In this document: piece by piece, positions 1,584 through 64,000 of the stretch
Numbering within the stretch: position 1 is the stretch's first letter
How the letters are laid out: each line of letters starts with the position of its first letter
Assembly: GCA_025331445.1 (NCBI GenBank)
Contig: JAIWNE010000008.1
Span: forward strand, 551,158-615,157
Length of the DNA: 64,000 bases
Source: Blakeslea trispora
Lineage: Eukaryota > Mucoromycota > Mucoromycetes > Mucorales > Choanephoraceae
Reading direction: 5' to 3'
Made by a program: the position numbers and the translations under genes
Notes under the pieces: generated by a model
What the model saw: only the letters and a program-made list of their open reading frames with translations
Database searches by the model: none
Told to the model about the DNA's origin: nothing

Positions 1584-2813
1584 TTAAGTGTTTATTTCAT
1601 CAATACATCGTGTACACTGACACTCAAAATGATAATGCTCTAATAAACGAGCACGGCGTGTCTCGACAGGCTCATGGACAGCGCCATAAGAGATGCATGC
1701 CTCTTGGCCCTGTTCAATTGTATGTCTAGCAATAAACTTGATGTTTCTTTTTTCTCTTACCTTGATGACATTAGCATCACAGGAATGATTGAAATAGACA
1801 GCAGAAGGATAGATGCCCCAACCCAGTAATTCCAAATCGTCTGTGATGGCTCCTTCATCTTGATTTGATGTATGTTTAGGTAGCTCCCAAAGACCAAAGC
1901 TGTTTGCACGTTCACGAAAGAAAATAGCTCGGAATAGATTGTGCGTAACTGAAACAATGGTAGGTATGTTGAACAGAGGTGTAGTAAGAGCACGCCTCAG
2001 AAAGGTGTAGAGAGCCATGATATCCAAGACCTCCACGGGTAGTGTCTGAAGCAATAGCAATGCTTGATTTGGTATAGTAGGATCTAATTTAGGTAGCATG
2101 ACATGACTGCAATGGGCTCTGAAATGAGATAGTTCGTTGTTCTGAATGACCAGCAAATTTTCAAAAGGTTGAACATAAGTTGATGAAATTTCGTTTGTGT
2201 TTTTTCGGACAATACAAGTAGCAATCAGTCGGCACATGGTAACATCTGATGTTTCTATTTCTCTATTAAAAAATTGAGGACTGTCTTGAAGGATGTCCCA
2301 GGCTTGGTCTAACCAATGCATAAGTATTTCATCATCACGACTGTCTATTGTCAATGAGGCTGATGGCTTTGCCGCGAATGCTTCTTCTAACCGTATAGTT
2401 GGCTCAGATTTCTTAAATTCAACATCAATGCGATGATATGCAGCTAGCAATTGTTCCCATTCATCCGATGATGATTGGGTCTGCTTGAATGTATCTCTAC
2501 ATTGCTCTGAGCAAAAGAGGATGCTGCTCAAAAAGACAGGAAGTTTGTTGTTTTTGATCTGCTTAGACGTGCATAAATTCCAAGCCTGTGCTAAAGCTAA
2601 CCGATCGATTTCTGTCAACACTTTGACCTTTTGTTTTTTAGGGTAGCTAAAATTAAAGCACCAGAAGCAAGTTTCTGGTGTCCATTCATGCGACACAATG
2701 GCTGCAATTGGCTCGGAGATATGGACGACAGTACCGGCATCGATTCTTTGAGTTGCTTTGTAGCCTCGCCCTTTTCCAGGAAGAATTGCTACCTGTAAAT
2801 ATTGATTTTCCAT
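1584..2813 (-). CDS. SET-domain protein, SMYD/Set5-Set6-like
   Basis: Single-exon gene of 409 residues. The open frame extends ten codons further upstream but only to a TTG; the first ATG is at 2813 (MENQYLQVAILPGKGRG). The N-terminal segment (KGRGYKATQRIDAGTVV) is the start of a SET domain. It is followed by a cysteine-rich insert (CFWC ... FCSEQC) resembling a degenerate MYND zinc finger, then the catalytic NHSCDAN motif, the substrate-side tyrosine region (GQEACISYG) and a post-SET cysteine cluster (FECQCTRC). This order, a SET domain split by a MYND-like insert, is that of SMYD proteins and fungal Set5/Set6. The family methylates lysines on histones or other proteins; the substrate here is unknown. 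The middle of the protein (residues about 130-300) is poorly conserved and helical. The gene stands alone in a gene-poor region. Confidence 0.85.
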   Translation of the reverse strand: MENQYLQVAILPGKGRGYKATQRIDAGTVVHISEPIAAIVSHEWTPETCFWCFNFSYPKKQKVKVLTEIDRLALAQAWNLCTSKQIKNNKLPVFLSSILFCSEQCRDTFKQTQSSSDEWEQLLAAYHRIDVEFKKSEPTIRLEEAFAAKPSASLTIDSRDDEILMHWLDQAWDILQDSPQFFNREIETSDVTMCRLIATCIVRKNTNEISSTYVQPFENLLVIQNNELSHFRAHCSHVMLPKLDPTIPNQALLLLQTLPVEVLDIMALYTFLRRALTTPLFNIPTIVSVTHNLFRAIFFRERANSFGLWELPKHTSNQDEGAITDDLELLGWGIYPSAVYFNHSCDANVIKVREKRNIKFIARHTIEQGQEACISYGAVHEPVETRRARLLEHYHFECQCTRCIDEINT

Positions 2814-5778
2814 TCGTTGCCTGATAATCAAATGAACAAACAATAAAAAAGAAAAAAACTTTTTTTTTTTGGTTACAAGACAACGAGCGCTCTCTTTTTA
2901 TTGGCTAGTTCAATTAATTCTGATGTCCCAAATCTTCTTACTTTTACTGTATAAAGCACTTTATTAGGTGGATTAAGCTTAGTCCACTTCAATTAGTTCC
3001 AAGGCAACATCAGAGGATTTTGAGCAAGCACACCTATAGAGACTTTAAGCAGCAATGGGTGTATCATGACGGATCATATATCCGAAGCCACTGGTCAAGC
3101 CACCAGCATATACACTCAGATGCAAAGGTCTCTCTAATTTTTTCTGAGAAAAAAGAGTACTGCTCGAATAGCCATCAAAGAAAGCTTCTTGTGAATTTCG
3201 AAATACATAAAGTAACAAAGCACTTCAAGACGAAGAGAACAATTCGTTAATATATAAGAATTGAAACGCACTTTGATATATTAAACGATTAAATGACGAC
3301 TCGTCCCTAGATCCAAATTGAGAATGATTTTTACAAATGTGCGATTACATATCCTATTATTGCAATGTTAGGACAATAACACCTGCTGCTTTATGAAGTT
3401 TTGCCATAGTTAGTTCATTATATAGCGTCTGGCGATAAACCGACAGGAGGACTTGTGGTATGACTGCTGCCAAATTATATACTTTGAATGCAGGGTTCTT
3501 TATTGTCATCCCTTATAACCGTGAGAGCTGTAGCATATGGTGTATCGCCTCAATAAATTGCTGTATTTTGATTGAAACTGAGACAATTGCTTAACTTTAA
3601 GCTGTTTGATTCAGGGAGCTGTTAGTCTAGGGAAAACTTTCTGCAGGATGAATCAGCGCTTTAAACTTTGACATTCATTTGATATAGGAGTAATCATTTA
3701 CCCTCCTTAAATCGAACAACAACTGTGTTGATCGGCAACCTTGTGTTGACACTAAAGGAGCAAAAGATCTTCTGAACCTCTGCCTATGCGCATGTTTTAG
3801 AGTATATATCTGATGGTTTAAATGGTTGAGCCAAGACGAACTTAATAGCGAATGATCTACCTTCAAAAAATTAAATTCACAACGCACTATACAAAACAAT
3901 GATATAATACAGTCAGGCTTATGGAAATACACAGGTTGCTGAAGCGAAGGATGAAGAAGTGGTGGTCACCCGCCCATGGTATAAGTTTTTTTTTAAACAA
4001 GACTCAATTCCCAACTCTATAAAAGATTCAAAAAAATTGTATCACGAAGCTAGCATTAGAAGATATAAAGGGAAGGGAATTGGGGATCAAAAATTTTATT
4101 AGAGATATATGCAAAAGGTTTCATCCTGAAATTCAACCACGATTGATAGCCATTCTACAAGAAATAGACTTGAATGAACCAAGATGGCATGGTAAGAAAG
4201 CTCTTTTTCTTCCCAAGCATTCTATGACATCCTGATTCATTCAAGTCTATTTCTTGTAGAATGGCTATCAATCGTGGTTGAATTTCAGGATGAAACTTTT
4301 TGCATATGTCTCTAGATCAAGATAAAGATGATTTTTATTCAATAAAACTGTGGATATTTATACTATTCTAAAGGTGCTAAAATATATGCATTGACTAAAG
4401 CTATAAGCTGTTAGTTTCTTGGCAGAAAGATGTTTCTTTACTATTTAACGTAGGAGCTCATTAACAAGTGACTTGTAGCTGTATATAGGGCTGGTGCAAC
4501 GTGATTGTTAGATTGTTACAATGTTATGCAGCCCACAGACTGCATTTCTTGACACATTTTCTTTATTCAACATTTCAGATCTGGCTTTGTATTGCTTCTT
4601 ATTATTGTTTTTTTTTACAAGTGTTCAAGTATGAAATCATACATCTGTTTTTTTTTATTCGAATGCTAATCTGTCTTATGAATTGCATATCGCTTGGTGA
4701 TTTTTATTTCACTTCTGATTAGGCAAATAAGGAGGAGGAGACAAAGGGCGAGGAGAAATTCTGTGATATAGTAAGCCTATCCCACAGAAAGCAAATGATA
4801 AGCATTACTGTTCTCGGGAGGCCAGATCCTCTTTTCATGCTCATGGGTTGTTTCGCTAATCAGGATCTGAGTATCCCTTGCTCTAGCATCGGTAGAATTA
4901 TATTTTATTTGGATTTCTTTAGGCAAAAAGAAGAAAAAACAAAGGGTTGACTCCACAAAATGGGTTGCCTGCTAAATCCCCGGCTGCTGAACTAATGATA
5001 CAAACAAAAAGAAAACCAATAAAATTGGTACCAACTTAGATTGGAACAAGAAGATAGAGCTTTATATTATACTGGTTAGAACTCTTTAATCATTGTTTGT
5101 CTGAAAGATAATAAAGTGAAACATAATATAGTAGCTGATAGTCTCTGTCTCAAGCACCCTTCCTTAATTTTTTAACTTTTTTTTCGATCTCTGTTAGGGA
5201 GGCCTGTGATTGTGATTTAGTTCAGTTATTTTTCTCTTTTTTCTCTCGCTTTGATGTTCCCATTTATGAGCATTCGAGTGCAATTTTGCAACTACGTAGG
5301 TTTTTTTAAAGTTAATCGATGATCGAGTCAAATTTTGATTTCCAATTGATTAAAATGAATCTTATTAACTTCATTTTTCGAAATAAACCGAGGAGCTATA
5401 TTTCCACAATGTAAGCGAAACTTCGAGTGGATAGGATGCATATTAACCCATGAATCAGGTGAAATCATTATGACTTGCTTATGCATTGAACCCTGAATAA
5501 TCTCAGGACATTACCTTATTTTTTCACTTTATTTTTTTTAGATTCCAGTTCCTCCGAGCGAACAAACAAACAAGCTATAGAAAATAGGTAAGCCAATGAC
5601 AAAAAAAGAAAGGGGAAAAAGGAAAACCTGCAAAAATATCGCATGGAAAAACGTGAAAAAAGTCAAGGATAAAGAAAACCATAAATAGAGGTCTCTTTGA
5701 GACAGTAGTATTTATTCCTTTCTTTTTTTTTTCTTTCTCTTTACTCTTGACTTATTTATAAATCATAGTTATCTGAGC
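2814..5778. other. Gene-poor intergenic region
   Basis: About 3 kb without a convincing gene. It contains short ORFs with no motifs, homopolymer A/T runs, and one strong structure, the inverted repeat at 4100-4312 listed separately. Towards the right end, 5681-5700 carries a TATA-like stretch (CATAAATAGA) followed by a long pyrimidine tract at 5715-5745, a plausible core promoter for the gene starting at 5779. Confidence 0.5.
4100..4312. repeat. Long inverted repeat (hairpin) with coding-like arms
   Basis: The left arm, about 4104-4177, is repeated as its reverse complement at about 4232-4306 with only a handful of mismatches; weaker similarity continues inward toward the loop. Both arms are open in the same frame and read DICK(R/K)FHPEIQPRLIAILQ followed by EIDLNE, and the one clear difference in that frame is a conservative Arg/Lys change. 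The structure would fold into a stem of roughly 75 bp with a loop of about 55 nt. It could be an inverted duplication of a gene fragment or transposon piece, or a small-RNA-generating locus. Confidence 0.85.
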
Positions 5779-6907
5779 ATGCTTCTCGTTACAGGTGCCG
5801 ATCATTACATTGGACATGCCATTGTTTCGCATTTAGCTCAGTACAAAGAATTGCGACCCAACTTACGGGTACTCTGTCAAAACAAATCCCGCTGTTATGG
5901 TTTTGCCAATGCCAACATTGATGTCCGCACAGTAGACTACCAGCATCCTAATCAGCTCTCAGTTGCATTCCGTGGCGTAGAACACTTAATATTAGCCATT
6001 GGCAACGAAGATAATAGAGTTAGCAATGCTAAATCTGTTTGTGCTGTAGCTGCACAATCTGGTGTAAAAAATATTATCTGTATCTCTCATGTAGGTGCTA
6101 TCTCAAAAGTACATGCTTCATTACAAGACTATGATCAAATTGAGCAATATGTCATGGAAAGCGGCTGTTCCTATACAATCCTCAGGTATATACAAAGTAG
6201 CAATAACATATCAACAAAGCCAATTGACCTCCTTCTATAATACAGACTTGATTTTGTACAACAATACTTTCATTTATGGTCGAATTATGCAGAAAAACAT
6301 CGACAGATCTTATTGCCTTTGACTGAAGATGTAGAATTTTGCCCTATTGCTATTTCAGACGTGTGTAAAGCCATAGAGAATCTGTTGTTTGAAGAAAATA
6401 CACATACTTGCAAGCCGCTAGATGACATACACGATGGACAAGTCTACATTCTCACTGGTCCTGAAAAGTTACATGGAAAGCGCATGGTGGAGCTCTTGAC
6501 TTCTAGCACAGGCTATTCGCACTTTAAATATCGCCGTGGCCGGCCCATGGACCTTGATTATTATCTAAGCGGGCTTAGCAAGGATATTTGGTTCGATGCT
6601 CGACTCAAGCAAGAAATGTCACACATGTACCATGATACGTTTGATCAAAAAGAATATCAAAGTCGAGTCCATGGCTTTCCTACAGGTAAAGAGAAGAGAA
6701 GAAGAAAACGTCATGGTTGAAAACTAAAGCTTTCATCACTGTACAATAGCAAAACAAATTCAAACTTATTTAGATTACTTTGATTGGGTCCAACAAACTT
6801 CAGGCAGTATTTGTGTACCACATGCAAGTATGCTAACAAAATCACCTTGTGAGCCTATGCAACTCTTTTTTGAGCAAAATGCCAACAGCTTTAAGCCTCG
6901 AGTATAA
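5779..6907 (+). CDS. NmrA-like NAD(P)-binding Rossmann protein
   Basis: Three exons: 5779-6185, 6246-6685 and 6750-6907, with introns of 60 and 64 nt. The N-terminus MLLVTGADHYIGHAIVSHL carries the glycine-containing nucleotide-binding loop of atypical short-chain dehydrogenases in the place of GxxGxxG. It is followed by CAVAAQSGVKNIICISHVGA and a YDQIEQYVMESGCSYTILR segment, which matches the NmrA/HSCARG pattern where the active tyrosine and lysine of true reductases are absent. After the first intron the frame continues with LDFVQQYFHLWSNYAEKH, and ISDVCKAIENLL and YILTGPEKLHGKRMVELL are the usual C-lobe features. Family members are NAD(P)-sensing regulators or isomerases; no substrate can be named. 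The last exon encodes the C-terminal tail ending at TAA 6905-6907. Confidence 0.85.
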
Positions 6908-49566: not shown

Positions 49567-49685
49567 CTACAAAACTACAAAACTACAAAACTACAAAACT
49601 ACAAAACTACAAAACTACAAAACTACAAAACTACAAAACTACAAAACTACAAAACTACAAAACTACAAAACTACAAAACTACAAA
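49567..49685. repeat. Minisatellite, about 15 x 8 bp (CTACAAAA)
   Basis: Fifteen nearly exact CTACAAAA units in tandem. Both open frames across it are periodic artefacts of the repeat. Confidence 0.97.
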
Positions 49686-51753: not shown

Positions 51754-51953
51754 ATCAAAGGCGCTCAATGCCATCACAACAGTTCTCAAGCATTGACTCA
51801 GGCTCAACATAAGGCTCAATAATAGATAAGTTGCATGCTTTAAGCGAGAGAGAGAGAGCGAGAGAGAGAGCGAGAGAGAGAGAGAGGGAGGGAAAGGTGG
51901 TGGTGTTTATGGTATTATTTCTTGTACAAAAGGTTTTGTGTGTCTATGTATTC

Positions 51954-53246
51954 TTAGTCTGTGGACCAAAAATAGCGTATAAGCATAACAAGGACTACAC
52001 TATAGATGGATAAACAGATTAACTTGATAGAATAAAGAACAACCTTTTGTTTCTGTCTATTCTCCTTATCTATAGGATACAAGACATTTCCAATCAGAAT
52101 ACCGGCAATCAGTCCACCGACATGAGAAAAGCTATCCACGCTAACAAACAGCTATCAGTTAGTTCCTGTTTATATGTATATAAAAAAGAAAGACAAGCGA
52201 TTTAATCATGTACCTAGGTAAAAGACCATACAAAAATCCTAAAAGAGTGTACAACACAAGCTTAACCAAAGATCGAATAGGATACTCCAAGGTTCTCCAA
52301 TGAAATACCAAATCCACATACATGAATCCTATCAGTCCAAATAATGAACTGCTATATCCCAAAAAGGCTTCACTTTAACTTATTAAATAAACTTCTTTTG
52401 TTCCTATTGTTTCTTTTTTTTTATGTCTATTTATCTATCACTTACGATTGATGGACAATGCAAAACAATCGCCAAATATATGACCGAAAATACCTGAACC
52501 AAGAAACAAAACTGAATGTCTTTTTTTTAAACATACAATCACTTGTTTTGTATCATTGACTTACTCGAAAACCATAAAGAATTGATACATGCTTCAATTC
52601 GACAACCCAAATAGAACAATCCAATGCTATTGATCAACAAGTGGAAAAGACCCACATGAATCAAAAGTGAGGTAAAGAATCGATAATTCTGATCAGGCAT
52701 GAATTCACGTTGAAATCCACTCATACCACAGAAGGAAACTAACGAGCAACTGACGTTCAACAAAACAGGATCATCTACCGAATCAAGCAAGAGCAAGGGC
52801 TCCCTTTGATCTTTCTTGATATCCTCTAGTTCTGCAATCGTCTGAAGACACACATAGTGCTCCGTAGGCGGCATGGATGGAGTGGGACGCATACAAGGCG
52901 TAAACCGAGCACCTGATTGTATCATGATCTCAACTGAAGGACCCAGCATGTAGTTGATAGGCTCCAATTCAAAATATTCGCCTGTCCTTTGTCGGTTAAA
53001 TACAAGCTCGCCTGAGAAGACGATGAGTGAGACAAACAGAATAAGGTAAGTAATGATTGGCCAATGACTATCCGTTGTTTTGAGGTAAGGACTGATAGAC
53101 GAAAAGAGCCAATGAAATCGTCTGGGTTGCTTTTCCTCTTTCTCTGTTTGAGTTTCAAGATCAGCATGCCATAGATTCATGTTGGGTAGATGATAATTTC
53201 GTTTGTTTAATTGAACATGACTGAATTGTCGACTTGGTTTATTCAT
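51954..53246 (-). CDS. Rhomboid-family intramembrane serine protease
   Basis: Four exons: 52565-53246, 52446-52493, 52214-52367 and 51954-52140, giving 356 residues. A cytosolic N-terminus of about 65 residues leads to a first membrane helix (PIITYLILFVSLIVFSGELVF) and a loop domain. Then come the conserved QNYRFFTSLLIHVGLFHLLIN block, where the HxxxN element contributes to the oxyanion hole, GHIFGDCFALSIN, the catalytic serine motif LGYSSSLFGLIGF (GxS, here GYSS where bacterial enzymes have GASG), and the catalytic histidine in DSFSHVGGLIAGILIG. Such enzymes cleave membrane proteins within the bilayer, usually in the Golgi or plasma membrane. Ser and His are both present, so it is probably active, unlike an iRhom. 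The third exon acceptor was chosen because it alone restores the frame before LGYSS. Confidence 0.88.
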
Positions 53247-53478: not shown

Positions 53479-55662
53479 TTACACAATTCTAGGCTTATGA
53501 CAACCACGGGCAAAACTAAGAGGAATCAGCTTATTCAATTCCACTTTGGCAAGTACCTGAAGATCCTTGGCATCCAAGACTAGCAAGAATGAAGTAGCTC
53601 TTGCAGAATCCATCACTAGACTGATCAAGACACCTGCATCTTCTTCTAGGTTCGATTTGTCTCCTGATTTAGGTATAAACTGAGCTTCACTAGGATAACA
53701 GTTATCTTCACTCCAAGAGGCAAGTACCTTTCTATCATTGACATCCTATCAAGGTATATCTCCTCTTAATATGCTATTATAGGAATTTTTCCTGAAAAAT
53801 ACTACTTACAATCTTGACAATACTATCCCAGATTTTACCTTCAGGAACGGGTAGAGAAGAAACTGTGTCTTTGAAGCCAATACCATAGACAAATGAATAA
53901 GGCTTCATCTTGTAGTCAGGATTGACACAGGGTAATTCCAATGAAACATCTGTCAGTTTTTCATAATCAACCACAGGCATCCATGCATGCCAGCCACTAG
54001 AACCAGTTGCATTTTCTGGTAAATGTGTATTGCCTGTGACGTAATTCCAGACTGTACCTACACGCGATGTGATACTGACAGCAGAGGGAATAAACGAGTT
54101 ATTGGCAATGTAGGCTTGGTGAGCATCATGTTGAGGTTGTTTCAAGGTATACCGTCTCAGTTCAGCAGAGGCTAAGCGGCCCATCTGTTCAGGCTGACGC
54201 AACATCTCGGTAGACAACTGCTGCGTGATCTTATCGTCTTGATAGCTGACAAGATCGACCACCACATTGCCATGAATATCTTCAAAGGCATTGGCATGAT
54301 GGAATGAAAAGCTTGCACTGGATCGATAACAGGCAATGACATCCTTGTCTTTACGAGAGATCACGTAGAACAAGGTGGGTTCTGAGGGATAAAAGTCAAA
54401 CGAGTCAAGGATACTCTCTGACCATGAAAACTTGACTGCACCTGTATTGGCCAACATGGGGTGGATGACCATCACAATGTAGTTGGGTGTTAAGCAGAAT
54501 TGATTGGTCCATCCTGTAGGTGCATTCCAGATGGTGGCTATGATGCTGCCTTTGGGATCCGCTTCAGAGATAGAAAAGAAGTGATATTTTGTGGATCGAT
54601 AACCAATCTCCATAGTGAAATTGATGTATTCACCTGTGTGAGGATCATATTGACCATGAGGTGAAGCACTGTAACCTTTGAATTCTGGATTCACTTCATC
54701 CCATGTTTCTACTCGCATTGGCTTTAAATCAATAGGATCCAGTTCTTGAATCTAACAAGAATTAAATTAGCATAAAATTGTCCTCTTTTTTTTTTCTTCT
54801 TACATGATTAGCGAAATTCTGACAAAACAATCGACCTTCAATACCCGGTAATTGAGTAGTGATACGTTGTCCACAAGGTACACGATCGGGCTTTGGCTTT
54901 TTACCGTTGTTTAGAAATTTGATCAACATGGTTTGGTTGGGATTTGTCTTGAACAGACCTGCAGGATATTGAGGAGCATAGCCATGATGGTCCCGGATCT
55001 TTTCTGTCAAGCGTTTATTAACTAAACGATGTCGATAGGTCACTGTATTTCTCTGACCATCCAAATCAAAACGGTTGACAAGCGGTAAACTGAATGAAAG
55101 AAGAAAAGAGTCAATTCCTATCTCCTTCTTCAGACAAAGTAGTTAAACTTACGCGTCAAACCAATGGCCCAAAGTGAAAGTAGATGTAGCACTTTGAAGT
55201 ACACCATCAATTTCAATCTTTCTTGAATAACGTACATCATAAATGCCGGGACCTACAGTATAGTGCTCACCAAGAAGCCATTCAGGCAATTTGCCTTCTA
55301 CTGTAAGATCCAAAATATGTGAGGAATCTGTGATATTATAAAAACCCTACATTCATAGGAAAGAGAGAGAGAGAATCCATGGTGAGATTCCATTCCAGCA
55401 TTGTTTGAAAGTAACAATTAAAGTTTTTGTGTATGTCTGTATATATTACCTTGATATGACTGGTATCCGGATCTAATGCTGGTTCTTTCAATTGCTCGAT
55501 TTGACTTAAAGTAGAGTCCGAAGGAGTGAGGTTCGGTCTACCTTCACTATCAAGTAATGCTCTATCTTCTACTGGCTCAGGTTGAAGAGGATGTTCTTCT
55601 ATTATATCTTGTACTTCGTCTGCCTTCTCAGGCATGGCATAATGGTTAGTTGTATCTTCCAT
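53479..55662 (-). CDS. Carotenoid cleavage oxygenase (RPE65/CarS/AcaA-type), possibly catalytically altered
   Basis: Five exons: 55450-55662, 55153-55346, 54804-55089, 53810-54751 and 53479-53745, giving 633 residues. The seven-bladed carotenoid oxygenase fold is recognisable from EWLLGEHYTVGPGIYDVRYS through SASPHGQYDPHTGEYINF, TNQFCLTPNYIV, FSFHHANAFEDIHGNVVVDL and PLSFARG near the C-terminus. In this family four histidines bind the iron. By eye, the first (PHGQYDP) and third (FHHANAFE) are present. The second position, H in HSFxLTPNYIV of RPE65, is Asn (AAT), and the last, H in the FxHG-type motif, is Arg (CGT). In Mucorales such enzymes cleave beta-carotene and its products on the way to trisporic acid, the sex pheromone. 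The replaced ligands would predict weak or no activity, or a regulatory role, if the reading is right. It lies 149 bp downstream of taspase on the same strand. Confidence 0.9.
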
Positions 55663-58154: not shown

Positions 58155-60314
58155 ATGTCAACACCACCTAAAAAACCAAGTATTGACATTGAATACTTTG
58201 AACAGCCTAAAGTCATTGGTTATTTCGAGAGCATCATCAACTCTTTGCGTATCGAACTAGACAAGGCAGGCTGTGTGACCGATTTCACTACACCTGATCT
58301 AAGTTATTTCACAGCTCATTTTCAAAAGTTTCAACTGGATCACCTCAAGAAACAACACGAGACTTATATCCCTTTTGCCTACTTTAACCTACTCTCACTC
58401 ACCACCCGATCCCCACTCTATCATATTCTAAAGTCAGCATACCGATTCAAATCAGAGAGACAGATGGCCGATTGGCGTTGGGATGCACCTGAAGAAACAG
58501 CACACTATCTTCAGATGATTCAGGTCATCAAGGATGACTTGGACAAAGCAGGATTCGAACTCGCAAAGCCTCGTATCTGGTTTTATGAGGCCAGTCAGGA
58601 AGAACAAAAAAAGAAAAAGCATCACTATAGCAACCACCAGGGCCAGCTGAATCATTGGCATGCCTTGGTAGAACAATTGGGAGGTGTGGTCGTCGAGAGC
58701 ATAGAAGAAGCCACGTTTGTGGTTTATCACCAAGAACAGACATTTGATCGATATCATCGTAATTGGCGTATTGTGCATCAAACTGGAACAAAAGAAGAGG
58801 CCTTGATTCACTGGATTGGTTTACCGGATTCTTATAATACGTTGGTCCATTTGGATCAGTGTGCTGAAGAAAGAAAGGAAACAATTCAGCTAGCCAAAGA
58901 CAAACAGCGTGCACCATGGCATGTCAAGTCAAACTGGATTGATGATAGTGCGAAATACAGCGAATGGATGTCACCTCTGGACTATGTCATGTTGGAACAA
59001 CAGACTACACTTAAAAGAAAGGAAGAAAGTGCACCACACGAAGTAGCAGTAAAAAAGACCAAGGTGACAGAAGAACAGACAAGACAAAAGACATGGGCTA
59101 TGGCACGCCAATATATGCCCATTCAACAATTTGAGGTCATCATTCCGTCCTACGCTGCCTGGTTTGATCTAGAGACGATTCATCCTATCGAAACCAAGGG
59201 ACTGCCCGAATTCTTTAATGATAAAAACAAGAGCAAAACTCCCAGCATCTATAAAGAATACCGTGATATTATGATCAACACCTATCGATTAAACCCTATG
59301 GAATACTTGACTGTCACAGCCTGTCGACGTAACATGGCAGGCGATGTGTGTGCTATCATTCGAGTGCATGAATTCTTGGAACAATGGGGGTTGATCAACT
59401 ATCAGATGGATCCTTCGGCTAAACCAACAGCTATTGGCCCACCTTTAGAGGGTCAAGTGAAAGTGGTTGCTGAATTCCCTATGAGCATGACTTATACGCC
59501 TACTAGTAATAGCTCTTCTCTAGATAGCCCTCCAGATGCTTCCCCTACATCCAACACCGACACTACTTCCTCTGCTTCAGACAAGACAATTCAACCTGTA
59601 GCCTCTAAACCTAAAGTAGAAGATCTTCTTCATTTGGATTTACGTAAAGATATCTACAAGCCAACTACGTGTACTGTCTGTGGTCAGGACAACAAAAAGA
59701 AAGGTTACATGTCAACAAAGCAATGGATCTGTGATGATTGTTATGAACCAGAAAAGCATCAGGATGAATTCAACAAGCAACCATGGACAGAGCAAGAAGA
59801 GATGCTGTTGTTGGAAGGATTAGAGATGTTTCCCGAGGATTGGCACAAGATTGCTGACCACGTAAACACAAAGACACGGGATGAGTGTATTCTACATTAT
59901 CTTCGGTTACCTCTGGTGGATCCTACTGACCTTAAAGAAGAAACAAATAAAGCATACAGCCATACTGAAATGGATAACCCCATCATGTCTGTGGTTGCCT
60001 TTTTAGCAGCCAATGTACCTCCTAAAGTAGCTGCCTCTATCCTGTCACAAGAAGAAACAACCGTCAGTCCAACAGAACCTACACAAAATGAACACACGGA
60101 AAAGTTCAATCTGATCCGTGCCAAAATGGATGCTTACTCCGACCGTATCCGTCAATTTGAAAAGCTAGAAGAATGGGTGGATACAGAAAAGAGACAGCTA
60201 GAAAAGGCGCGATGGTTGATTCAGAATGAACATGTGGCGATACGAAAGCAAGTGAATGATATCTGTCATCGTATGTTTCAGCAACAGCCTAATGGTCACA
60301 TTGAACAACAATAA
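58155..60314 (+). CDS. SWIRM-ZZ-SANT chromatin remodeller subunit (SWI3/RSC8/SMARCC-like)
   Basis: Intronless, 719 residues. The order of domains is that of SMARCC1/2: an N-terminal region with the MarR/BRCT-like module (YFEQPKVIGYFESIINSL ... GQLNHWHALVEQLGGVVVES; WRIVHQTGTKEEALIHWIGL), then a SWIRM domain (about 335-420: FEVIIPSYAAWFDLETIHPI ... YLTVTACRRNMAGDVCAI), a ZZ-like zinc finger (CTVCGQ ... ICDDCY, about 508-532), a SANT domain (QPWTEQEEMLLLEGLEMFPE and DECILHYLRLPL), and a C-terminal coiled coil (KLEEWVDTEKRQLEKARW). These subunits form the scaffold core of SWI/SNF and RSC nucleosome remodellers in the nucleus. It has no introns, while neighbouring conserved genes have four to thirteen exons, which is notable. 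It converges with TRM7; the stop is 20 bp from where TRM7's conserved frame would end. Confidence 0.93.
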   Translation: MSTPPKKPSIDIEYFEQPKVIGYFESIINSLRIELDKAGCVTDFTTPDLSYFTAHFQKFQLDHLKKQHETYIPFAYFNLLSLTTRSPLYHILKSAYRFKSERQMADWRWDAPEETAHYLQMIQVIKDDLDKAGFELAKPRIWFYEASQEEQKKKKHHYSNHQGQLNHWHALVEQLGGVVVESIEEATFVVYHQEQTFDRYHRNWRIVHQTGTKEEALIHWIGLPDSYNTLVHLDQCAEERKETIQLAKDKQRAPWHVKSNWIDDSAKYSEWMSPLDYVMLEQQTTLKRKEESAPHEVAVKKTKVTEEQTRQKTWAMARQYMPIQQFEVIIPSYAAWFDLETIHPIETKGLPEFFNDKNKSKTPSIYKEYRDIMINTYRLNPMEYLTVTACRRNMAGDVCAIIRVHEFLEQWGLINYQMDPSAKPTAIGPPLEGQVKVVAEFPMSMTYTPTSNSSSLDSPPDASPTSNTDTTSSASDKTIQPVASKPKVEDLLHLDLRKDIYKPTTCTVCGQDNKKKGYMSTKQWICDDCYEPEKHQDEFNKQPWTEQEEMLLLEGLEMFPEDWHKIADHVNTKTRDECILHYLRLPLVDPTDLKEETNKAYSHTEMDNPIMSVVAFLAANVPPKVAASILSQEETTVSPTEPTQNEHTEKFNLIRAKMDAYSDRIRQFEKLEEWVDTEKRQLEKARWLIQNEHVAIRKQVNDICHRMFQQQPNGHIEQQ

Positions 60315-60360: not shown

Positions 60361-61388
60361 TTAATGCCATGGCAGTCTTATAAGGTGCAGTAATAGGAGG
60401 TTGTAAGGGATCCAGTTGTTGATAGGATGCCTGTAAAGGATAAGTTCGGTCAGCATCATACCCGTTGAGATCACCACAGGCAATGAAGGGAACAATGGTA
60501 CGATTGGGTCAACCAGTTCATTCATGCCATCGTATTGTAGATCCAAAAGAGGATTGGCCATAGTAGGTGTATAGCCAGCAGGAGGTTGATAGCCTTGACA
60601 GACAATAAAAGATTCAATACTTGAGTTACGTGAACTTCGAGGCTTTGAGCAAGTGACAGTAGGGAAAAAGATCTTGAGTTGACTGTATAACAAAGTGATA
60701 TCTTTACCACGGAAAATCTTGGCTACAAATGTACCTCCAGGACGCAATACATGAGTTGTAATATTCAATGCCTAATAATATCGTGTCAAAAAAAAAGGTC
60801 TCGTTTGGCGTCTAGATCAACTTACAGCCAAGAGTAATTGAGCTTGAATGTATTCATCCATATCATGAAGACCTGTCACATCGGGTGCACCATCACAAAT
60901 CACAATATCTGCTAACCCACCATCAAAGTATGAAATGATCTTTTCGGCTGTAGACTCTTTAGTAATGTCACCCTGTAGCTGAATTACGCCATCCAAAGGA
61001 GCCATAGCTTGTAGATCTACAGCGACGATCTTGTGTTCTTGTTGATTCTCACTAAATGAATGTCTTGTTAGCATACAAACTACAAGTTATTATTGCTATT
61101 ACCTAAGTCGCTTGGAAAGGACTTGAGACCAGCTACCAGGTGCAGCACAGAGATCGACTGCTCTCTGAACACCTTGTAGAAAGTTGAATTCTTCGTCTAA
61201 TTGTAACAGTTTGAAAGCACTTCTAGCACGCCAGCCTTCTTCTTTTGCTAATCGGTAATACTGATCATAAAAAACTAAGTCCTCATGTCAAACCCCCATG
61301 TTCTCTCTCGCACTCTCCCTTCTTTTTTGGTGCGTTCTTCTTTACTATGACTTACAACATCTCTTTTGTCTTTAGATGATTTGCCCAT
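60361..61388 (-). CDS. TRM7: tRNA 2'-O-ribose methyltransferase Trm7/FTSJ1, with a frameshifted 3' end
   Basis: Four exons: 61356-61388, 61103-61260, 60826-61051 and 60361-60771. The protein starts [20 protein letters not shown] and has the SAM-binding [19 protein letters not shown], the catalytic tetrad K (YRLAKEE), D ([11 protein letters not shown]), K ([10 protein letters not shown]) and E (NSSIESFIV), and QLQGDITKE. It methylates positions 32 and 34 of the tRNA anticodon loop, with Trm732 and Trm734 as partners in yeast. As sequenced, the frame after [10 protein letters not shown] becomes nonfamilial and ends at 60361-60363. A shift of one base at about 60504-60509 restores the conserved ending ([20 protein letters not shown] and [11 protein letters not shown]) with a stop at 60335-60337. 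So there is a one-base deletion here, either real or a sequencing error. The whole catalytic domain is intact. Confidence 0.9.
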
Positions 61389-61619: not shown

Positions 61620-62127
61620 TTATTGTTCTTCTTTTTCTGGTGGAGGACCACAAGGTTGAAGCATTTTCTATGTCATTCAGGAAATAAGCATGGCTGAACA
61701 ACGCACATTAACTGTAGAATCTTACCTCCAACATGTTCATTTTAGCGCGTGCCTTAGTTTCGTTTTCTGCAACACTAATATAAGACAGTAAAGAGTTGTG
61801 TCCAACAAACGAAGCAAGTGAATCTCTATACTGGTTGGCTACCCATTCACTAGTTTGCAATTTAAGAAAAAAAAAAGCAAGTGAGTTGATGATCAAGTCG
61901 GTTTTTTAAGAGATTCGACTCATTACTGTTTGATGGTATCGGCATGTCCAGTGCCTACATATTTAGATTGTACTGTATAGAATAAAGTCAATATAAGCTA
62001 AGTTTATAACTATCTATTCTTTCAAATTACAATGTTCGATTTGGCTGTTGATATTTAGTCTATCCTAACCAATGATACCATGTTAGTTATTGCTTCTCTT
62101 CTTTAGTTATTACAGTAAAGTTACCAT
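61620..62127 (-). CDS. SF3B5: Splicing factor 3B subunit 5 (SF3b10)
   Basis: Five exons on the minus strand: 62125-62127 (only the ATG), 62031-62064, 61927-61972, 61726-61849 and 61620-61667. The total is 255 nt, 84 residues, against 86 in humans. The protein reads MDRLNINSQIEHLQSKYVGT, GHADTIKHEWVANQYRDSLA, SFVGHNSLLSYISVAENETK, ARAKMNMLEKMLQPCGPPPE, KEEQ. It is a small subunit of the SF3b complex of the U2 snRNP that holds the branch site during spliceosome assembly. Conservation of the joined sequence makes the structure secure even though the exons are tiny; the start codon stands alone as a coding exon before a 60-nt intron with a CTAAC branch-like site. Confidence 0.92.
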
Positions 62128-62410
62128 TTACACAATTTGTCTTAAACGAAAAAAAAAATATACAAAAAAAAATAAGAGCATAGACATTATCAACCTATGT
62201 CTGTGTGACTCTTAAAGCATTGGGATTCCGGTAGATTAAGCATAAATCAATCAAATTCCCCCCTCTGTGATAGATTGAAAGGCTAAGCCTGCTTAAATCA
62301 AATGAGTTTTATCTTTTTCCCCTTGAGTTTAATTGGTTCCAAAGATAGGTAAAGGACAAACATTACTCCTTTCTATTTATTTGCTTTTCTCTCTCTCTAC
62401 TATTCACAAA

Positions 62411-62920
62411 ATGAATCAAATCGATTTTGAGAAGCTAAACATGCTCACTTATGAAGAGTCTCTATTCAACATCAACCGCTTAAAGTGTGCGCATAATTGG
62501 CATACCATTGCCAAATTCCAAAACTTGATTCACAACATAGATTTCGCAGACCTGCGAAATAGGGATGATATTCTATATAACAAAAAAATACTGTGGGAAA
62601 TGAGTGATGGGTGCTATTCGGAAGAAAGAGAAGCAATTTTTACTGTACATGAGCCGTTTCCAAAGAACGAGTGTTACATCTACGTGTATGCACCTGAATA
62701 TGTCGAGATAATTACCAGAATGAAGAAAAGGTTGAAGCGCATGCAAGACAAGATATGGATGGAAAAGATTGAGCAATACGTGGACAATACAAAAGAGATG
62801 GTAAACGCGTTTTATGATGATGTCGCGACACTGAAGAAGATGGTACATGATCAAGTTCATGTGTACGACCGAGCCAAGTTTGAGAAGACGTTTCGCGTTG
62901 ACTGGGACTTGATGAAATAA
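62411..62920 (+). CDS. Orphan protein, plus-strand copy of an inverted pair
   Basis: Intronless, 169 residues; the ATG at 62411 is preceded by a C/T-rich leader. I recognise no family. The sequence is acidic to basic and helical: MNQIDFEKLNMLTYEESLFN, then RLKCAHNWHTIAKFQNLIHN, ECYIYVYAPEYVEIITRMKK with the basic KKRLKRMQDKIW, and YDDVATLKKMVHDQVHVY, FEKTFRVDWDLMK at the end. There is no signal peptide, membrane helix or zinc motif. The last 145 bp, including the stop, recur exactly on the opposite strand at 63852-63996. It lies 283 bp from the divergent SF3B5 gene. Being duplicated and conserved to the base over the coding end but not in the 3' UTR, it is probably a real gene of a lineage-specific family. 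Confidence 0.7.
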   Translation: MNQIDFEKLNMLTYEESLFNINRLKCAHNWHTIAKFQNLIHNIDFADLRNRDDILYNKKILWEMSDGCYSEEREAIFTVHEPFPKNECYIYVYAPEYVEIITRMKKRLKRMQDKIWMEKIEQYVDNTKEMVNAFYDDVATLKKMVHDQVHVYDRAKFEKTFRVDWDLMK

Positions 62921-62923
62921 AAA
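62779..62923. repeat. 145-bp exact inverted repeat, left copy
   Basis: Identical, as reverse complement, to 63852-63996. It covers the last 46 codons, the stop and the first bases after it. Similarity stops abruptly five A residues into the UTR. Confidence 0.95.
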
Positions 62924-63854
62924 CAAACAAACAGTTCTTTTTTGTTTTAATAAACAAATCGTGTTATTATCTTTTTCCATTTCACAATACAAACAGTCAA
63001 AATAAAGAAACTCATTCTTAGTGCAAAACTAGGCTTGACATTGAAGGAAAACACAAACGCCAATCTCCATGCTAAACTTCACTACCAAAAAATCATTGCT
63101 TGAACAATTTAGAAACTGTCATTCGTAATACTTGATTTGGTACATGATGTGTGAAGTGTACCTTTATCTTTATTCCTGGCATTGTCTCGCCACATCTTTT
63201 TTACTTTTGCTATTTGATAGGAAGGAAAGCCGTATGGTCTTATCTTGGGAGGGTTTTTTTCTTTCTCATAATGAAAAAACTGATAAATCAACACGAAGGA
63301 CTCGTGACAAGGTTTGTAAGAAGCGCATTAAAGCCTACTCTATATTGTGTTACAAACTCTAGCTGTCCAAACCAGCTTTTTTGATTTTCTGAGCAGAGAA
63401 ATAAACGGATACAAAAGTCAAGCCGAAATAGCGTAAAACTGTCGACAAAGAAGATGTTGAATCACCAAATATTGTGATTTCTATTTCCTGTTTATTGACC
63501 AAGGCTTCGTGCAAAGTAGTTTAGGTCATTCATTGCTATCTTTATATGGAATAGTTTATCAGAATTTCTTCTTACAAGTGTTCTTCTGACAAGCATGCAC
63601 GATGACCTTTCTTTTGTTGTTGTCAGAGATGAATTGATTTGTTCATCAATTATCGTGTCTTTGAGAAAAGAATTTTTTGCATTTGTAGCTTGAATGCTCA
63701 TACACTCATTTAAATAGAATTTCCTGAACAGACATGGCTTTAAGTTTTCGCAAAGTATTTTAAGTGGAAACGGGGTAAACAAATAATGCTATGTTGTAAA
63801 AAAGAAGAACATATATATAAATTTTATTCCTTTAAAACCAAATTAGATTCATTT
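62924..63854. other. Spacer between the inverted orphan copies
   Basis: No gene supported; ORFs at 63109-63294, 63132-63384 and 63492-63782 have no motifs. About 0.93 kb of ordinary AT-rich sequence separates the two tail-to-tail copies. Confidence 0.45.
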
Positions 63855-63996
63855 TTATTTCATCAAGTCCCAGTCAACGCGAAACGTCTTCTCAAACTTG
63901 GCTCGGTCGTACACATGAACTTGATCATGTACCATCTTCTTCAGTGTCGCGACATCATCATAAAACGCGTTTACCATCTCTTTTGTATTGTCCACG
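63852..63996. repeat. 145-bp exact inverted repeat, right copy
   Basis: The mirror copy of 62779-62923. The four bases beyond it (63997-64000) already differ from the left copy, consistent with a one-base deletion or a substitution just before the window ends. Confidence 0.95.
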
Positions 63997-64000
63997 ATTG
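63855..64000 (-). CDS. Orphan protein, minus-strand copy, 3' end only
   Basis: Partial gene cut by the window edge. It encodes the C-terminal 46 residues VDNTKEMVNAFYDDVATLKK ... FRVDWDLMK, identical in protein and DNA to the end of the copy at 62411-62920, with the stop at 63855-63857. The base sequence departs from the other copy at the very edge (CAATCGTGG against CAATACGTGG), which may mean a frameshift in one copy or simply divergence. The rest lies outside the window, so it cannot be told whether it is intact. Confidence 0.65.
   Translation of the reverse strand, partial: IVDNTKEMVNAFYDDVATLKKMVHDQVHVYDRAKFEKTFRVDWDLMK

Follow-up and report, generated by a model that had tools for sequence, protein, structure and literature searches.

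Near one end of a contig of the mucoralean fungus Blakeslea trispora, a gene of 169 codons is followed by a partial, inverted copy of itself, and the locus raises the question of what this gene encodes, how it came to be there, and whether its second copy is real. We analyzed a window of 64,000 nucleotides (nt), C264:551158-615157 of the 37.2 Mb assembly in 285 contigs; the initial annotation, made from the sequence alone, had placed an unrecognised orphan gene at 62411-62920. The frame is present, from its ATG to its stop, inside an open reading frame of 195 amino acids (aa). The gene is not an orphan, however: judged by Pfam, by a profile search of the PDB and by predicted fold, it is homologous to, and encodes, a coat protein of the tobacco mosaic virus (TMV) type. 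With a probability of roughly 0.7, we consider it a resident gene of the host genome, part of a Mucorales family whose origin lies in the coat protein of a virga-like (TMV-type) RNA virus.

The window protein matched the Pfam family TMV_coat (PF00721) at 4.4e-15, with 56.8 bits and a curated cut-off of 26.5. In the whole genome we found nine matches to this family, eight of which exceed the cut-off, the ninth being the terminal fragment of the second copy. The eight intact members lie on seven contigs (C224, C209, C258 with two, C135, C264, C124 and C280), and none of the eight full-length loci contains an inner stop. No match to PF00721 was found in 14 control genomes, among which those identified by name are prokaryotes. 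The initial annotation had considered a gene family under strong homogenisation; the family is there, but its seven other intact members are 15-44% identical to the window gene, and homogenisation is therefore not supported.

Profile searches found relatives in six genera, Blakeslea included. One profile search returned 12 proteins including that of the window, 11 of them with PF00721, and another returned seven, all with PF00721; those represented are Blakeslea trispora, Choanephora cucurbitarum, Cokeromyces recurvatus, Benjaminiella poitrasii, Rhizopus microsporus and Sporodiniella umbellata. All six genera belong to the Mucorales, in three families, B. trispora being a member of the Choanephoraceae, and where a relative has been given a name, it is "hypothetical" or "uncharacterized". 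Protein P0004 is the C224 gene (100%), and P0005 is the C209 gene apart from a gap (91%, 162 columns). The C209 gene is 14 codons longer than P0005, with GT and AG bases near the ends of the extra stretch, which could be an intron or a difference in gene models.

A tree of 18 rows showed two clades, each at 100/100: clade A, with 11 rows from the six named genera, and clade B, with seven rows from Blakeslea and Choanephora. The window gene belongs to clade B, which was found only in these two genera. Left out of the tree were P0001 (the window gene itself), P0003 (partial), P0004 and P0005 (the same as C224 and C209), P0008 (85% to P0007) and P0016 (a fragment). The clades are linked by long branches, and the midpoint root serves for drawing only; C124 and C258a also lie on long branches, and their positions are unsure. 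By profile comparison the two clades are related to each other (92%, E 5.9e-7, 131 columns), and they may represent one capture or two.

The PDB was searched with fungal sequences only, because the current training set of Pfam is not visible and independence was wanted. The profile of alignment A1 (the window gene, P0002 and seven Blakeslea paralogues, nine out of nine rows of which matched PF00721 at E<=0.01) found the coat proteins of cucumber green mottle mosaic virus (CGMMV; 1.6e-8) and of hibiscus latent Singapore virus (3pdm; 9.2e-6). A profile of clade B only reached a coat protein in the PDB at 3e-5, whereas clade A profiles, at only 0.05 and 0.23, were weaker than either; the lone window sequence found no coat protein in the PDB. 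Neither of two further alignments, A3 and A4, includes P0003, P0016 or a set of five Blakeslea clade B paralogues, identical in both cases; P0015 is also absent from A3. The predicted model of the window protein has the TMV coat fold, more weakly seen in the clade A models, and its structural alignment with tobamovirus coats has 12-14% identity. In low-identity alignments, the fungal proteins resemble the tobamovirus coats (TMV, CGMMV) in F-P and F-E residues as well as in fold, and differ from them in that the two arginines of the tobamovirus T-R-N-R are not kept, being aligned to i and d of the fungal consensus. If these two arginines are the RNA contacts of the tobamovirus coat, RNA binding by the fungal proteins may be altered.

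The TMV coat is a textbook virus protein. A virus-type protein in an assembly could also stem from contaminating material or from a live virus carried by the culture. We regard this as extremely improbable, since the family copies sit on DNA contigs of 128-818 kb, their loci have a GC content of.37-.42, near the.37 of the window, and relatives occur in other genera. In addition, host genes adjoin at all three loci scanned, namely FtsJ and SWIRM/Myb at the window gene, XRN_N at C280 and WD40 at C258. The window gene is located in a host chromosome among host genes, as an endogenous viral element would be. It should be noted that for three of the eight family genes the nearest contig end is at most 6.5 kb away, which has a probability of about 0.04 by chance (a post hoc observation). 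Scans of IMG/VR with A2, P0003, the window protein and P0014 gave pattern matches and no relative; A1 is too variable to be used in this way. The viral domains RdRP_2 and Vmethyltransf had no match in the genome, and the 14 controls were silent too, so that absence is not demonstrated; Viral_helicase1 had six weak partial matches and also matched nine of the 14 controls, all nine bacteria or archaea, and is therefore uninformative.

We compared the window gene with its two closest paralogues, distant pairs being saturated and little informative. Differences at the three codon positions were.36/.29/.61 for the pair with C135, in which 37 of 65 codons for the same amino acid differ, and.41/.32/.62 for the pair with C280 (38 of 64). 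In 1000 trials of a neutral simulation without indels, an open frame survived 20% change in 1.6% of the trials and 30% change in 0.2%. The codon pattern between the closest paralogues, with the frame intact, is that of purifying selection.

We suggest that the coat gene of a virga-like virus was captured by Mucorales, from virus to host. The opposite direction, in which virga-like viruses acquired a coat fold that had originated in fungi, would agree with the spread of the family over six Mucorales genera; TMV-type coat models are found in numerous RNA viruses, those of plants and insect-associated ones among them, which makes it improbable. The capture from virus to host would be old, in the case of clade A predating the divergence of the three families sampled, and duplication probably followed it.

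The initial annotation described a second gene copy on the opposite strand whose last 145 bp, with the stop, are identical, separated from the first by about 0.93 kb of unique DNA; the exact repeat and the unique spacer were both found (Table 1). Exact inverted repeats of at least 30 nt were sought throughout the window, and none is longer than this one. The identity had been said to end at the stop; it does include the stop, but continues for another three bases. At its opposite limit it does not clearly stop at 63996: base 62778 lacks a counterpart in the second copy, after which four further bases match up to the contig end, giving 150 columns at 99.3%. Base 64000 is the last base of the 615157-base contig; therefore, the second copy is cut by the assembly and is a terminal fragment. 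A DNA search of the gene against the assembly gave a second match limited to query bases 364-510, and the remainder of the second copy was not found elsewhere in the assembly. The fragment scores 92.6 bits in protein comparison and 22.6 bits with PF00721, below the Pfam cut-off. The two genes on C258 are also arranged tail to tail, at 51936-52340 (+) and 54659-55090 (-), about 2.3 kb apart and 28% identical.

Table 1. Features of the coat-protein locus and its neighbours (positions in the window)
Feature	Position	Strand	Remark
Coat-protein gene, 169 aa, single exon, intact	62411-62920	+	TMV-type coat protein, PF00721
Inverted repeat, first arm: last 142 coding bases including the stop, plus 3 bases	62779-62923	+	
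Spacer between arms, 928 nt	62924-63851	.	Sole genome match is itself
Second arm: 3' fragment of another copy of the gene, in tail-to-tail orientation (100% identity)	63852-63996	-	
Four more gene-matching bases after a one-base gap, then contig end	63997-64000	-	
SWIRM/Myb protein	58155-60314	+	Host neighbour
Two FtsJ-like methyltransferase pieces (60361-60768, 60817-61074)	60361-61074	-	Host neighbour

The terminal copy is probably a real, recent inverted duplicate. Very recent duplication, as initially proposed, is thus the favored reading, but an assembly fault stays in play because the fragment ends exactly at the contig end. In the latter case, the end of C264 would be chimeric or wrongly polished and the genome would hold one copy, which we judge possible at somewhat worse than even odds. 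Such a fault would account for a second copy that stops at the contig end with no further part found in the assembly, and the one-base gap, four bases before the end, resembles an end-of-contig error. Two observations weigh against our account of a host gene family with a new terminal duplicate: five of the six Blakeslea clade B genes are absent from the annotated proteins returned by the profile search, and two of 40 other contig ends, those of C180 and C200, are inverted self-copies. The 40 ends comprised 20 starts (first 400 nt compared with 6 kb) and 17 ends with three more starts (300 nt compared with 1.5 kb); one of them, the start of C264, is N over 2501-6000, a run of 3,500 that may represent a gap. 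Both self-copies are at the starts of small contigs (bases 1-4328 of C180 at 94%, bases 1-553 of C200 at 95%), and one more of the tested ends carried a direct match of 39 nt (82%). Hairpin reads are one type of artefact in assemblies, and the C180 and C200 palindromes look like such artefacts or are true palindromes. Therefore, inverted faults or palindromes do occur in this assembly, but they differ in appearance from the window repeat: they are full palindromes without a unique spacer, whereas the window repeat has 928 unique nt between its arms. An inverted copy of >96% identity was seen at none of the 40 ends. A separate 610-nt ENA record also argues against a fault, since its protein, P0003, diverges from the intact gene in codon 123, the one in which the exact identity of the window copy begins.

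P0003 agrees fully with residues 64-122 of the window gene and is unrelated to it from codon 123 on. The second copy might accordingly be a full gene broken at codon 123 by an insertion at which the contig ends, as both the departure of P0003 and the start of the exact identity of the window copy fall inside this codon. We consider this unlikely. Past the one-base gap, the match between window copy and gene resumes for four bases, and a break at codon 123 is therefore not established; the tail of P0003 was not found in the Blakeslea genome, P0003 has no Pfam match, and its junction is read from the protein alone. The idea of a missing base shared by P0003 and the window copy was abandoned, as the next residue of P0003 is serine, the codon of which cannot be read from the protein. 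Under the favored reading of a real duplicate, the fragment is most likely the newest duplication product of the family, an inverted tail-to-tail copy that the assembly follows no further.

As to function, the proteins would fold as coat subunits and might hinder the assembly or uncoating of related virga-like mycoviruses, in line with the concept of coat-protein-mediated resistance. Interference with such viruses is the likeliest of the roles that we weighed, and by analogy we propose it tentatively; a family that duplicates and diverges would be in keeping with an arms race. Alternatively, the family might be no antiviral factor and instead a co-opted structural or RNA-carrying protein that forms capsid-like particles, for which Arc is the model. 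Conservation across genera and a fold that is that of a self-assembling subunit are consistent with this role, but the expansion and strong divergence of clade B would fit conflict better, and in the low-identity alignments the fungal proteins lack the tobamovirus arginines; we rank it closely behind interference, at a similarly low probability. The broadest form of the proposal, that Mucorales keep expanding a captured TMV-type capsid family as heritable antiviral defence or as RNA-carrying particles, with the window fragment a duplication in progress, is more speculative still.

Related cases have been described. According to one report, fly chromosomes carry a TMV-type coat gene (eTCPL), with one possible match in a bee, and versions 28-31 of Pfam PF00721 contain no true eukaryotic sequence (PMC6520822). 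Like the fungal family, eTCPL is a TMV-type coat gene in a eukaryotic chromosome, single-exon and conserved, with its function undetermined; unlike it, eTCPL is described there as a single transfer, whereas the fungal family has eight intact copies in two clades (PMC6520822). Phycomycetaceae and Mortierellales have transcribed endogenous genes derived from RNA-dependent RNA polymerase, as described in a second report (PMC7482067). These are likewise RNA-virus genes kept by Mucoromycota, but they are replicase instead of coat genes and belong to other lineages (PMC7482067). For Rhizopus microsporus, a third report describes a virga-like virus of seven segments, in which the proteins of RNA6 and RNA7 are similar to hypothetical ones from Rhizopus arrhizus and Mucor plumbeus; that virus and host have exchanged genes is brought up as a possibility by the authors (PMC11351042). 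This virus shares with our case a Mucorales host for a virga-like virus; it differs in that a coat protein is not named in the sections consulted, and we liken it by description only (PMC11351042). In a partial survey of the literature, covering sources other than subscription papers and preprints, no TMV-type coat genes were reported in fungal genomes, and the fly genes, with the possible match in a bee, were the sole chromosomal relatives encountered. Chromosomal TMV-type coats in flies and viral replicase genes in other Mucoromycota were already known, and the multi-copy fungal coat family would be a new variation on these. With such a family shared among culturable moulds of several genera, capsid co-option in fungi would become directly testable, and likewise the question of whether captured capsids protect against mycoviruses. 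The family also shows that the profiles and folds now available can identify proteins listed as "hypothetical" in Mucorales.

Elsewhere in the window, we take the SWIRM/Myb neighbour to be SWI3/RSC8-like. A scan of 61800-64000 against Rfam gave no matches. Simple tandem arrays with a period of 8 nt lie at about 46066 and at 49567-49677. A foldback element at 4100-4314 has 91-nt arms, 95% complementary, around 33 nt; it gave 80 matches on both strands, in about 40 other places at 83-91% (better strand), with 40 copies scored out of 161 candidates, and represents a family resembling miniature inverted-repeat transposable elements.
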